62,324 nucleotides of DNA. Source: an uncultured bacterium. GTDB lineage: Bacteria > Calescibacteriota > Calescibacteriia > Calescibacteriales > Calescibacteriaceae. Every line of letters begins with the position of its first letter. The first letter of the stretch is position 1. Shown here one piece after another: positions 52,663-59,374 of the stretch. The position numbers and the translations under genes are program-made. The notes beneath the pieces are model-generated. The model searched no databases and was not told the origin of the DNA. It was given only the letters and a program-made list of their open reading frames with translations. The stretch lies in contig CALHPK010000021.1 in the NCBI GenBank assembly GCA_938036315.1, positions 1 to 62,324 on the forward strand, read 5' to 3'.

Positions 52663-52891
52663 CATCTTAATGGACTATATATTGACATATTAGGATATTG
52701 GCATATTGGGATATTGGGATTGTCAGCTTATATATTTGGTCTTGTAAGACTGTGATAAAAGCTATTTGAGTGGATTTGTTTTTGCTGATTGCTAATTTAG
52801 AGGCTATCTCTTTTCTGCAGTAATGTAAAACTGAAAAAAACTTTATTACCATATGTTCAAGATAATTTGAAGCTTGAGAGGAGGTGTAGAT

Positions 52892-54460
52892 ATGAAGGAT
52901 AGCGAAAAGAGCGAGAAGAAGACAAAGTATGATGTTCTTCTTGATAAAGAGAAGAAATTACTGGAGGCAGGTGGGAGGGAGCGTATAGAAAAACAGCTAA
53001 AGGAAGGCAAGCTCACTGCCAGGGACAGAATAATGATGCTATTTGATGAAGGAACATTTGAGGAGCTTGGAAGGTTTGTGGAGCATAGGGTATCTGATCT
53101 TGGTATGGAAGAGAAGAAATATCTTGGAGATGGAGTGATTGTTGGATACGGTAAAATAGACGGACGACTTGTTTATGCTTTTTCACAAGATTTCACAGTA
53201 TTTGGTGGATCGCTTGGGGAGATGTTTGCTAAGAAGGTTTGCAATGTGTTTGATCTTGCTGCTAAAACAGGTTCTCCAATAATAGGTCTTAATGATTCAG
53301 GTGGTGCGAGAATTCAGGAGGGAGTTTTATCTCTTGGGGGATACGGTGATATCTTCTTGAGGAATGTCAGATATTCTGGGGTGATACCGCAAATTTCAGC
53401 TATTATGGGACCGTGTGCTGGTGGGGCAGTGTATTCGCCAGCAGTTACGGATTTTATATTTATGGTCAAAAAGGTAAGCTATATGTTCATCACTGGTCCT
53501 GAGGTTACTAAGGCTGCTACCTATGAGGAGGTAACGAAGGAAGAATTGGGAGGTCCTGAGGTTCATGCTGAAAAGTCTGGAGTTGCTCACTTTATAGCGA
53601 AGAATGATGAGGAGTGCATAGAGATGATAAGAAAACTTATGTCATTTCTCCCGAGGAATTATCTTGAGGATCCTCCGTTTGTTCCCACAGATGATCCAGT
53701 TGATAGGCTTACTGGAGAGCTCAGGAGTATTATACCTGAGGATCCGAATTTAGCGTTTGATGTCAAGAATGTTATAGAGGTTGTAGTAGATAGGGGAACT
53801 TTTTTTGAGGTTCAGAGGGATTTCGCAAAGAATATAGTTGTGGGATTTGGTAGACTTGCTGGCAAGGTGGTAGGTATAGTTGCTAATAATCCGGATTATC
53901 TTGCTGGTTGTCTTGATATAAACTCATCTGAGAAGGCGGCTAGGTTTGTAAGATTTTGTGATGCTTTTAATATTCCTATAGTAACTTTTGTTGATGTTCC
54001 GGGATTTTTACCTGGTACGTATCAGGAGCACAATGGCATAATAAGGAGAGGGGCAAAGCTTCTTTATGCTTATGCTGAGGCAACTGTTCCGAAGATAACT
54101 TTAATTATGAGAAAGTCTTATGGTGGGGCTTATGTTGTGATGGGATCGAAACATCTTCTTGCAGATGTTGTTTTCGCTTTGCCTCAAGCTGAGATTGCGG
54201 TGATGGGACCGGAGGGGGCGGTTGATATAATTTTCAGGAAGGAAATAATGAGCGCGAAGGATCAGGCAAAAGTAAGGGCTAAGCTTATAGAAGAATACAA
54301 AGAGAAATTTGCCAATCCCTGGAGGGCTGCTGCATTGGGATTTGTGGATGATGTTATAAAACCTGAGGATGTAAGAAGAAAGATAATAAGGGCTTTGCTT
54401 TCGCTTGAGGATAAAGTTGAGAAACTTCCACCCAAAAAGCATGGGAATATCCCGCTTTAG
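52892..54460 (+). CDS. Acyl-CoA (propionyl/methylmalonyl) carboxyltransferase subunit
   Basis: Biotin-dependent carboxyltransferase beta-type subunit, 522 residues, full length for PccB/MmdA. Crotonase-like halves: FTVFGGSLGEMFAKKVCNVFD, GLNDSGGARIQEGV, GPCAGGAVYSPAVTDF; then VGIVANNPDYLAGCLDINSS, FVDVPGFLPGTYQEHNGIIR and KSYGGAYVVMGSK. An excellent SD (aggaggtg, 52879-52886) selects ATG 52892 over the upstream TTG. No biotin carboxylase or decarboxylase membrane subunit is adjacent, so carboxylase versus decarboxylase function is open. Confidence 0.95.
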   Translation: MKDSEKSEKKTKYDVLLDKEKKLLEAGGRERIEKQLKEGKLTARDRIMMLFDEGTFEELGRFVEHRVSDLGMEEKKYLGDGVIVGYGKIDGRLVYAFSQDFTVFGGSLGEMFAKKVCNVFDLAAKTGSPIIGLNDSGGARIQEGVLSLGGYGDIFLRNVRYSGVIPQISAIMGPCAGGAVYSPAVTDFIFMVKKVSYMFITGPEVTKAATYEEVTKEELGGPEVHAEKSGVAHFIAKNDEECIEMIRKLMSFLPRNYLEDPPFVPTDDPVDRLTGELRSIIPEDPNLAFDVKNVIEVVVDRGTFFEVQRDFAKNIVVGFGRLAGKVVGIVANNPDYLAGCLDINSSEKAARFVRFCDAFNIPIVTFVDVPGFLPGTYQEHNGIIRRGAKLLYAYAEATVPKITLIMRKSYGGAYVVMGSKHLLADVVFALPQAEIAVMGPEGAVDIIFRKEIMSAKDQAKVRAKLIEEYKEKFANPWRAAALGFVDDVIKPEDVRRKIIRALLSLEDKVEKLPPKKHGNIPL

Positions 54461-54999: not shown

Positions 55000-55253
55000 T
55001 ACTCCAAGAAGTCTTAAAAATTCATATAAAAAAAAGATTTATTCTAAAAAAGTAAACTTACTATATATTTTGGAAATAGTCATATTTCTATCAAATTTAT
55101 CCGAATAAAAGTTTGATTTTCTAAATAAAAAGCCGAAAAATCCTTGAAAATTTAACTAAAAGAAATCTTTTTGCTAAAAATATAAACTGATATAAAACTG
55201 TTTAAAGTTTTAATGATACTTCGCAGAAAAATAAAAAAAAGGAGGTAACAGAA
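55000..55253. other. 254-bp AT-rich leader region of amt
   Basis: No gene. It is very A/T-rich with repeated motifs such as ATAAACTGAT-ATAAAACTG (about 55182) and several CTAAA[A/T]A blocks. No sigma-54 type GG-N10-GC element is evident. It ends in the strong SD aaaggaggtaac before the amt ATG. Confidence 0.5.
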
Positions 55254-57614
55254 ATGGAAATAAAAAGAAAAACCGGTGCATTAGTATTAGTAATCTTTTT
55301 ATTAGGTTTTGCGGATCTTCTCTTAGCTCAGGAACAGCTCAGCGATAACTTACCTATGATAGACACAGGAGACACCGCCTGGATGATTGTAGCTACTGCA
55401 CTTGTGATGCTTATGACTGTGCCGGGTCTTGCTATCTTCTATGGTGGACTCTCAAAGCAAAAAGATGTGCTCAACACAATCGCTATGTCCTTTATAGCTT
55501 TTGCAATCGTAAGTGTCCTTTGGGTTATTTGTGGCTATACCTTTACATTTGGTGACGACTTGTGGGGAATAATAGGTTATCCTGCCAAGCTCTTGCTTTC
55601 TGGTGTGGGAGTCAGTAGTGTTTCAGATTTTGCAAAGACGATTCCGGAATTTATCTTCGTGACCTATCAACTTACCTTTGCTGCTATAACGGTTGCACTT
55701 GTGAGCGGTGCTCTCATAGAAAGAATTAAATTTTCTGCATGGATATTGTTTTGCATATTTTGGATGATTTTTGTGTATGTCCCTATCGCACACTGGGTGT
55801 GGGGAGGGGGATTCCTTGCAAAACTTGGAGCTCTTGATTTCGCCGGTGGGACAGTGGTGCACATAAATGCAGGTGTAGCTGCACTTGTTGGCGTCTTAAT
55901 ACTTGGGAAAAGATTAGAGGTATCCTTGCTCCCGCATAACCTACCAATGGTAGCAATAGGCACAGGACTTCTATGGTTTGGATGGTTCGGATTTAATGCT
56001 GGCTCTGCACTGGCAGCAAGTGGGCTTGCATCAGCAGCATTTATAAACACAAATACTGCAACTGCTATGTCTGCTATATCCTGGATGTTTTCAGAATGGA
56101 TCTTCTCAAAAAGGCCAACAATACTTGGTATCGCATCGGGGGCTGTTGCAGGACTTGTTGCCATTACGCCAGCAGCAGGATTCGTAAATATCAAAGGAGC
56201 TATCGCAATAGGAATGTTAGCCGGGATAGTGCCATTCTTCGCAGTAGCATATGTAAAGCCAAAATTAGGATACGACGATGCTCTAGATGTATTTGGTATT
56301 CATGGAGTTGCAGGAATCCTCGGAGCGATACTGACCGGAATTTTTGCCGATCCAGCAATAAATGAAGCGGGAAAGGGACTTCTCTACGGGAATCCATCAC
56401 AGCTCCTTATCCAGATTATCGCTGTAGTAATCACGATAACATATGTATCCATAGTTACAGCTCTCATATTCCTTCTGATTAGAACAATTGTAGGGCTCAG
56501 GGTTGATCCAGACGATGAAATCAGTGGGCTTGATCAGAGCTGTCATGGAGAGAAATCATACAATCTGCATATAGGGAGATTAATTTTGATCCCTCTGATC
56601 TTCGGGGTATTGACCAGAGCGGAAGCTTCTGAGCTCAAGACTGAACTGTTGGGAACTTTGAATGTCAATGGTACTGTTAGTGTGTACACTTTATACCCCG
56701 GAGATGATAAAGGAATACATTACGATGCTGGTTCTGCTCTTTTTGTAGTGTCAAAGAATGCTGAACCTGTGGGTTTTACTATAAAGGGTGGTGCCTATGC
56801 ATTTCCTGTGGTCGGAGTAGGAATCTCAGGAACCACAAGCTCGACAGATTTGTTTAGTCCGATACCTGTGGCTTACCTGGAGCTAGCCCCAGCAAAAGGA
56901 TTTTCTCTTCAAGTCGGTAAACTTCATACTCTTTTGGGCTATGAATCTCCTTTTACTTATAACAATAATCACATACAGAGAGGTTTGATATGGAATATGC
57001 AACCGATTTTCCACAATGGGGTGAGACTATCTTATGCATCAGATCTGCTTGCCATTAATGTAGGAGTTAATGACGGCTTTTATTCTCTAAGTGCAAGTCG
57101 TCCAAGACCAGCTTTTGAAGGTGGTTTGAGTGTAACCCCAGTAGAAGGCTTCTCTTTGTTGTTCAATTTTATATTGCCAGATAAGGGTTCAGTCCCCAAC
57201 AAAACATCCTACCCTGCTAACAAAAGGTTGCTCAACATTATCGCTGTCTATACAGTTGGTCCTGTGGCTGGGGGTGTAGACCTTATGTACGCAGAGGCGC
57301 CACGTAATGCAGATGCTGGAGTGCCAGAGGTAGCAAAGGCAATAGGTGGATGTACGCATATTTCCTATCGTCTAAAATCTTTTGCAGTATCTGGGAGAGT
57401 AGAATATGTCATGGATAATGAAGATGGTGCTAATGATCTTGTAGGCTTGGGAGACGGGAATCGGGGCTGGACATTTACCCTAACGCCAGCATGGACCAGC
57501 GAGCAGTTATTCATAAAAGGAGAATTCTCTTATGTCAGAGCAGAAAAACCTTTTACCCAGAATAACAAAAATGTTCAGCCAAGATTGGGTGTTGAGGTAG
57601 GTTTTGTTTTCTGA
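55254..57614 (+). CDS. amt: Ammonium transporter Amt fused to an outer-membrane beta-barrel protein
   Basis: 786 residues in one frame. Residues 1-26 are a signal peptide (LVLVIFLLGFADLLLA). Residues 30-436 are a complete Amt/AmtB channel: GLAIFYGGLSKQKDVLNTI, the first pore His in PIAHWVWGGG, FAGGTVVHINAG, and the second pore His in FGIHGVAGILG. Amt ends at the usual cytoplasmic tail (GLDQSCHGEKSY). Without a stop, residues 439-458 form a second signal-peptide-like segment (HIGRLILIPLIFGVLTRAEA), followed by a 328-residue BBP2/porin-like barrel (LELAPAKGFSLQVGKLHTLL, ending LGVEVGFVF). Strong SD upstream. glnA follows, but no P-II gene is seen. An internal TTG at 56586 could start the barrel separately. 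Confidence 0.9.
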   Translation: MEIKRKTGALVLVIFLLGFADLLLAQEQLSDNLPMIDTGDTAWMIVATALVMLMTVPGLAIFYGGLSKQKDVLNTIAMSFIAFAIVSVLWVICGYTFTFGDDLWGIIGYPAKLLLSGVGVSSVSDFAKTIPEFIFVTYQLTFAAITVALVSGALIERIKFSAWILFCIFWMIFVYVPIAHWVWGGGFLAKLGALDFAGGTVVHINAGVAALVGVLILGKRLEVSLLPHNLPMVAIGTGLLWFGWFGFNAGSALAASGLASAAFINTNTATAMSAISWMFSEWIFSKRPTILGIASGAVAGLVAITPAAGFVNIKGAIAIGMLAGIVPFFAVAYVKPKLGYDDALDVFGIHGVAGILGAILTGIFADPAINEAGKGLLYGNPSQLLIQIIAVVITITYVSIVTALIFLLIRTIVGLRVDPDDEISGLDQSCHGEKSYNLHIGRLILIPLIFGVLTRAEASELKTELLGTLNVNGTVSVYTLYPGDDKGIHYDAGSALFVVSKNAEPVGFTIKGGAYAFPVVGVGISGTTSSTDLFSPIPVAYLELAPAKGFSLQVGKLHTLLGYESPFTYNNNHIQRGLIWNMQPIFHNGVRLSYASDLLAINVGVNDGFYSLSASRPRPAFEGGLSVTPVEGFSLLFNFILPDKGSVPNKTSYPANKRLLNIIAVYTVGPVAGGVDLMYAEAPRNADAGVPEVAKAIGGCTHISYRLKSFAVSGRVEYVMDNEDGANDLVGLGDGNRGWTFTLTPAWTSEQLFIKGEFSYVRAEKPFTQNNKNVQPRLGVEVGFVF

Positions 57615-57955: not shown

Positions 57956-59374
57956 ATGAAAAATGGAGTGATCAAGGAAGTCTTCGAGATGATAGAGAAA
58001 CATAAAGTTAGGATGGTTGATTTGAAGTTTACAGATTTTCTGGGACAGTGGCATCATTTTAGCGTTCCAGTGCATGAGTTAACCGAAAAATCATTTGAGG
58101 TGGGTTTCCCATTTGATGGTTCGAGTATTCGAGGTTGGAAGAGTATTGACGAAAGTGATATGTTTGTTGTTCCTGATCCAACTACTGCCTTTATAGATCC
58201 GTTTATAGAGGTTCCGACTATAAGTATGATTTGCAATGTTTACGATCCGATCACAAAGGAGAAATACGAAAGATGTCCTCGTTATATTGCTCAAAAAGCC
58301 GAGGCTTATCTGAAATCCACAGGAATAGCTGATGTGGCTTATTTTGGTCCTGAGGCTGAGTTTTTCATTTTTGATGATGTAAGATTTGATCAGAATACCC
58401 ATCAAGGGTATTACTATATTGATTCTGCCGAAGGGCAGTGGAACACAGGGCGTGATGATAAACCAAATCTTGCTTACAAGGTAAGATACAAAGAAGGATA
58501 TTTCCCTGTTCCTCCGATCGATTCGCTCAACGATATAAGGAACGAGATGGTTATGATTATGGAACAGTGTGGTTTTATAGTTGAAACTCAGCATCATGAG
58601 GTTGCAACAGCTGGTCAGGGTGAAATAGATTTTCGCTTTGCTCCACTTGTGAAATGTGGAGACAATGTCATGCTTTTTAAGTATATTGTCAAAAATGTTG
58701 CACGGAGGAGGGGGAAAGTAGCTACTTTTATGCCAAAGCCTATATTTGGGGATAATGGTTCTGGAATGCATTGTCATCAGAGTTTGTGGAAAGATGGGCA
58801 ACCTCTTTTTTACGGGGATGGATATGCAAATTTGAGCAAGATGGCACTTTATTATATCGGTGGGATCTTGAAACATGCTCCCGCTTTATGTGCTTTTACA
58901 AATCCGACGACGAATTCATACAAGCGCCTTGTTCCTGGTTTTGAGGCACCTGTAAATTTGGTATATTCATATAGGAATAGGAGTGCAGCTATACGTATTC
59001 CAGCAACATTAAGTCCTGCAGCAAAAAGGATAGAGGTGAGATTCCCAGATGGTTCTTGCAATCCATATCTTGCTTTTGCTGCTATGCTGATGGCAGGTCT
59101 TGATGGGATTATGAGAAAGATAGATCCCGGGGAGCCTCTTGATAGGGATATTTATTCTCTTTCTCCTTCTGAGCTTGAGGGGATACGTTCAACCCCCGGT
59201 TCTCTTGACGATGCTCTCAGAGCACTTGAGCAGGATCATAATTTCCTTCTTATGGGAGATGTCTTCACTATAGATGTCATAGAAACGTGGATAAAATACA
59301 AGTGGGAGAAAGAGGTCAATCAGTTGCGTATGCGTCCTCATCCGTATGAATTCCTGCTTTATTTTGATGTATAA
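57956..59374 (+). CDS. glnA: Glutamine synthetase type I
   Basis: ATP-dependent assimilation of ammonia into glutamine, 472 residues, as for GSI. Motifs: [41 protein letters not shown] and NRSAAIRIP. The ATP-site [12 protein letters not shown] is intact. A Tyr at the adenylylation-loop position ([10 protein letters not shown]) resembles the GSI-beta form, so covalent control is possible. Strong SD upstream. It follows amt, giving an ammonium uptake/assimilation cluster. Confidence 0.98.

Follow-up and report, generated by a model that had tools for sequence, protein, structure and literature searches.

Here, we report a single open reading frame, located in an uncultured bacterium of the Calescibacteriota, in which an ammonium transporter (Amt) and an outer-membrane porin of the BBP2 family follow one another through an internal signal-peptide-like segment. 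The frame lies in a contig of 62,324 nucleotides (CALHPK010000021.1, positions 1 to 62,324; the whole analysed stretch is hereafter the window). Overall, the open frame is real, its ancestry in a two-gene operon is well supported and a polyprotein serving two membranes is proposed as plausible. We put at roughly 55% the reading in which an acquired operon became fused and its product is a precursor that would be cut by signal peptidase, with the barrel going to the outer membrane. The features on which the argument is built are as follows.

55240 to 55245, forward strand: Shine-Dalgarno sequence AGGAGG of the amt start (sequence; duplex with the 16S tail, -12.6 kcal/mol)
55254 to 57614, forward strand: single open frame Amt-signal peptide-porin, 786 aa (ORF translation, Pfam)
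55254 to 55328, forward strand: predicted N-terminal signal peptide of Amt, residues 1-25, hydrophobic, ending LLLA-Q (judged by eye)
55377 to 56561, forward strand: ammonium transporter domain PF00909, residues 42-436, 11-helix core, twin histidines H203/H350 (Pfam, NCBIfam, AmtB alignment, model)
56526 to 56567, forward strand: conserved Amt C-terminal tail GLDQSCHGEKSYNL, where relatives end (comparison with relatives)
56568 to 56627, forward strand: internal signal-peptide-like segment, residues 439-458, HIGRLILIPLIFGVLTRAEA (hydrophobicity and terminal AxA, set against the signal peptides of relatives)
56572 to 56574, forward strand: out-of-frame TAG directly before the Shine-Dalgarno-like GGGAG (sequence)
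56574 to 56578, forward strand: Shine-Dalgarno-like GGGAG, 7 nt before TTG 56586 (duplex -9.0 kcal/mol)
56586 to 56588, forward strand: possible internal start codon TTG, leader MIPLIFGVLTRAEA (Shine-Dalgarno scan)
56625 to 56630, forward strand: predicted signal peptidase I site AEA-S, residues 458/459 (alignment; relatives' mature barrel begins LELK)
56628 to 57611, forward strand: predicted mature porin barrel, residues 459-786, 16 strands, terminal Phe (Pfam, AlphaFold model, fold matches)
56715 to 57611: BBP2 domain within the barrel (Pfam)
57956 to 59374, forward strand: glnA (glutamine synthetase), a separate downstream gene with its own Shine-Dalgarno sequence (ORF list, comparison, Shine-Dalgarno scan)

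Translation of the frame from ATG 55254 to TGA 57612-57614 meets no internal stop between residues 1 and 786, so that the stop-less join claimed in the preliminary description holds, as does its naming of glnA as the next gene. Pfam assigns residues 42-436 to Ammonium_transp (433 bits) and residues 488-786 to BBP2 (206 bits), and two domains of such scores in one open frame do not co-occur by chance. A domain search of the genome assembly (1.87 Mb, 85% complete) found a single Amt and a single BBP2, both in the fused frame, which speaks against a dead copy. The open frame and its content of Amt plus porin are thus confirmed.

The Amt had been described as complete, and it is: the PF00909 match runs over profile positions 1-399 of 399 against a cut-off of 23.2 bits, the conserved tail is present, and NCBIfam TIGR00836 (amt) scores 475.6 bits against a cut-off of 343.3. 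E. coli AmtB (PDB IDs: 2nuu, 1xqe) aligns with Amt residues 35-436, a span that takes in the twin-histidine pore and the C-terminal tail; in the alignment to 2nuu, H203 and H350 fall on the AmtB histidines, and D195, F142, W183, F247, and S251 are conserved. By profile and pore residues, the Amt part is a member of the Amt/Mep family, with ammonium conduction as its putative activity. Its N-terminus is modeled at low confidence as a helix over residues 2-30. Where the AmtB chain stops after its cytoplasmic tail, the fused frame continues. One-frame C-terminal extensions are likewise found in Amt proteins with signalling domains (8qj3, 8qpf; chains of 644-661 aa); there the extra part is a cytoplasmic signalling domain, whereas the extension of the fused frame would be exported. 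Two further stop-less Amt frames (G184:C8:79386-80597 and G188:C155:2204-3433) were observed, of 674 aa, about 230 aa beyond a plain Amt.

The C-terminal part, described at first as an outer-membrane barrel, is a porin by BBP2 family and predicted fold. Taken alone, the barrel matches BBP2 (PF07642) over profile positions 34-339 of 339 with 209 bits (cut-off 26.2). AlphaFold2 prediction of residues 459-786 with 30 related sequences gave a confident 16-strand porin fold (mean pLDDT 89); the long strands are even in number and the C-terminal residue is aromatic (Phe), as is expected of BBP2 porins. Comparison of this model by Foldseek and VIA-align matched general as well as specific porins; the best were OprP and OprO of Pseudomonas aeruginosa, sharing the 16-strand fold (Z 27, rmsd 2.6-2.9 Å over about 300 residues), although identity is just 12-13%; no solved structure matching the barrel by sequence was found. 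The modeled fold indicates a porin, i.e., a class of protein, and the substrate is not readable from the fold.

Between the two parts, the hydrophobic segment HIGRLILIPLIFGVLTRAEA directly follows the Amt tail and is itself followed by SELK. The bases after YNL are CATATAGGGAGATTAATTTTGATCCCT, which in frame read HIGRLILIP..., the opening of the segment that ends TRAEA-S. The suggestion that this is an internal signal-peptide-like segment is supported by hydrophobicity, charge, and motif: its best 9-residue hydrophobicity is 2.9 vs 1.8-2.8 in the signal peptides of 16 relatives, it ends in AxA, and it is preceded by a charge of +1, the n-regions of the relatives carrying +2 or more. Please note that in the full-length model the segment is a short helix of low confidence and that the junction (residues 427-458) has pLDDT under 50, so the model adds little here.

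What the two parts derive from is seen most clearly in the Aquificota (the phylum of G014, assigned from named loci), in which 119 of 136 genomes match. The pair is carried chiefly by the Aquificota family f95, where matches often span residues ~25-786 and contain one stop; identity is 60-65% for the five best. Junctions were read at 30 Aquificota loci (L138-L167) and at five further loci (L007, L053, L055, L056, L071), part of these junctions being known as open frames alone. The barrel lies directly downstream of Amt at 27 of the 30, a glutamine-amidotransferase-like gene stands between the two at 2, P-II occupies the downstream position instead at 1, and the amt-barrel pair is present at all five further loci. 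A stop follows the Amt tail in every direct pair read (32/32), and the layout is Amt tail, stop (TAA or TGA), Shine-Dalgarno sequence, ATG, signal peptide (usually 16-20 residues, longer in L143 and its like), and barrel. Most direct pairs have a strong Shine-Dalgarno sequence, the tightest being TAA GGAGGTATAGAC ATG, and in 14 of the 32 the barrel is in the Amt frame, one stop being the sole separation. At several of the L138-L167 loci, TAA and 12 nt alone lie between the amt and BBP2 frames; we know of no report of a tight amt-BBP2 operon in f95. The two loci L146 and L147, with the glutamine-amidotransferase-like gene between amt and porin, belong to the Aquificota whose Amt is nearest to that of the window. 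Outside Aquificota, BBP2 adjoins amt in several of 18 relatives over the cut-off (e.g., G061, G065, G074, G055, and G036).

The fused frame therefore shares with the Aquificota operon the same two proteins in the same order and a downstream barrel with its own signal peptide, with full-length identity of up to 65%; kinship holds for both parts, and the difference is that the operon consists of two genes and a stop, the fused frame of one cistron. That barrel genes are sometimes found beside amt, as had been remarked, is correct and understated, this being the usual arrangement in f95. No other stop-less Amt-BBP2 frame was found among the matches listed, from more than 500 genomes, where it would rank near the top, and a search of the viral collection found no relative. 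With every related pair that was read carrying two genes and a stop at this point, the condition named in the preliminary description as refuting, a conserved fused architecture is refuted, whereas the open frame of this genome stands. The pairing of amt and porin genes is a more solid result than the fusion.

How the pair came to be in this genome can be approached from phylogeny and gene neighborhood. In the Amt tree, the window copy lies among f95 sequences, beside two Aquificota (95% SH-aLRT), and in the barrel tree it falls inside the f95 clade (97/99), on a branch of 0.6 changes per site vs 0.1-0.3 for most f95 barrels. A contaminant contig from Aquificota is ruled out by the nearby carboxyltransferase gene (52874-54460), which is 81-84% identical to that of the organism's own family, and by the third-position GC, which is 0.34-0.35 in this gene as in amt, barrel, and glnA and makes a recent transfer unlikely as well. 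Comparison within the phylum covered four other genomes, all of one family; these carry a different stand-alone Amt (58-62% identity) and lack BBP2, on which ground a vertical origin was rejected. Because the pair groups with Aquificota and the nearby gene with the organism's own family, the amt-porin pair was probably acquired horizontally from an Aquificota type and later lost its stop; judged from these sequences, fusion is the derived condition, in one lineage. In three of the four same-family genomes a P-II gene directly follows the stand-alone amt. In the window genome the P-II gene is on another contig (L168, G000 contig C11, 20555-20872) and is followed, by eye, by the same small lipoprotein-like gene as in the relatives; it has no amt beside it, unlike in the relatives, and the native amt therefore seems to have been replaced.

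Two observations on the surroundings may be added. Among 13 genomes compared, glnA is 68% identical to that of two Nitrospirota genomes vs 57-61% to that of the own family, and it may have arrived with or after the amt-porin pair. In the same-family genomes and G090, a gene near amt encodes an exported protein (L003:143-964, L004:167-994, L006:131-952, and L011:2921-3727; TPSTTFWAPSTPYLQPFG..., TPSTTYWSPCTMDIQPFG...); these are perhaps also outer-membrane proteins tied to ammonium uptake.

We propose that, with the stop lost, ribosomes on Amt would read through the porin signal peptide into the porin. Amt would fold in the inner membrane, its C-terminus being cytoplasmic like that of AmtB, and with this topology a signal segment inserting N-in after the tail would export the barrel. 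The positively flanked hydrophobic segment would re-engage Sec in that orientation, signal peptidase I would cut at AEA-S, and BAM would place the barrel so freed in the outer membrane, and there it may admit ammonium or other small solutes to the periplasm beside Amt. In the full-length model, about 14 residues separate the hydrophobic segment from the first long strand. This linker is probably too short for the periplasm, so that function of both parts would need the cut. A precursor cleaved by signal peptidase, the cleavage itself being predicted, is the best-supported mechanism; the occurrence of the fusion in one genome alone and the n-region charge of +1 vs at least +2 in relatives count against it. 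Of the self-processing precursor proposed in the preliminary description, release by signal peptidase is permitted by the topology, whereas an evolved, conserved design is contradicted by all relatives read, which keep the stop.

Fusion of this mode is not without precedent. FbcH (cytochrome b/c1) of Bradyrhizobium japonicum combines a polytopic inner-membrane protein and an exported protein in one frame with an internal signal peptide; its precursor is cut by signal peptidase, and both products remain in the inner membrane, where they form one complex. The fused frame likewise has a polytopic membrane protein and then, in the same frame, a segment with AxA that hydrophobicity, charge, and motif mark as signal-peptide-like. 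The one-frame join is what the two have in common, the proteins being unrelated, and while both FbcH products are inner-membrane proteins, the second part of the Amt-porin would go to the outer membrane. No earlier report of an Amt-porin fusion was found in the open literature searched; that the frame gives a working two-membrane polyprotein, and would be the first case of an inner-membrane channel fused to its outer-membrane partner, we suggest tentatively, at somewhat less than even odds.

Two alternatives turn on the junction, which in alignments is 10-15 nt shorter than in relatives. Some junction bases must have been lost; a clean loss of ~19 nt (stop, Shine-Dalgarno sequence, and ATG), as suggested by a multiple alignment, was not retained, since pairwise alignments mostly keep the Shine-Dalgarno sequence, placing GGGAG, by eye, over the relatives' GGAGG. 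It follows to ask whether most porin is made from the internal start TTG 56586 through this retained GGGAG and the short leader MIPLIFGVLTRAEA, read-through being a by-product. The GGGAG/TTG lies where relatives have Shine-Dalgarno sequence and ATG, and its duplex of -9.0 kcal/mol is the second strongest among the 50 in-frame ATG/GTG/TTG codons within the ORF. However, the TTG leader has 14 aa and no basic residue vs 16-20 aa and +2 or more in relatives, and without a stop each ribosome finishing Amt makes the fusion, so that an internal start adds to the precursor and does not replace it. We regard this account as unlikely, though to be taken seriously. The mature barrel would be identical by either route, cleavage or internal initiation. 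The claimed 1:1 ammonium conduits are weakened by the same Shine-Dalgarno-like sequence and TTG: with possible extra porin from the TTG, a correct precursor would still not imply a 1:1 output, and the stoichiometry is unsupported.

Somewhat less likely again is a one-base consensus or assembly error, the organism having an ordinary two-gene operon. With one base fewer between the Amt tail and the TAG, Amt would have 439 aa and be followed by a stop, a Shine-Dalgarno sequence, and a TTG start, near the relatives' layout, and 379 of 420 single-base indels in the 84-nt stretch put an Amt stop nearby with the TTG left as porin start. Yet there is no homopolymer run between the conserved tail and the TAG, just 9 of the 672 single-base changes there yield an Amt stop together with a porin leader of at least 15 aa, one base does not explain the shortening, and, read in the fused frame, the segment is convincing as a signal peptide. 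A real and recent fusion that is harmful or neutral, with Amt working, an uncut or mis-targeted barrel degraded, and the porin function lost, would suit the long barrel branch and the single genome, but we consider it quite improbable with the barrel frame intact to its last residue, the terminal Phe, the confident 16-strand fold, and the signal-like segment all in place.

General porins are usually taken to be the route of ammonium across the outer membrane. In the anammox bacterium Kuenenia stuttgartiensis, a BBP2 porin is strongly induced by ammonium limitation, and its role in ammonium uptake is a proposal by the authors of that work (PMC7438415). The amt-BBP2 pairing across a bacterial family fits, together with this induction, a porin serving ammonium uptake, and points to a BBP2 porin dedicated to this task where it is paired with amt. 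The amt-BBP2 operon of Aquificota makes such a specific ammonium porin testable, even if the join is an error. If the signal-peptidase-cleaved precursor is true, a single frame would supply both membranes by way of an internal signal peptide, and it would offer a direct test of the re-start of Sec after an 11-helix protein and of the hand-over of a barrel to BAM.
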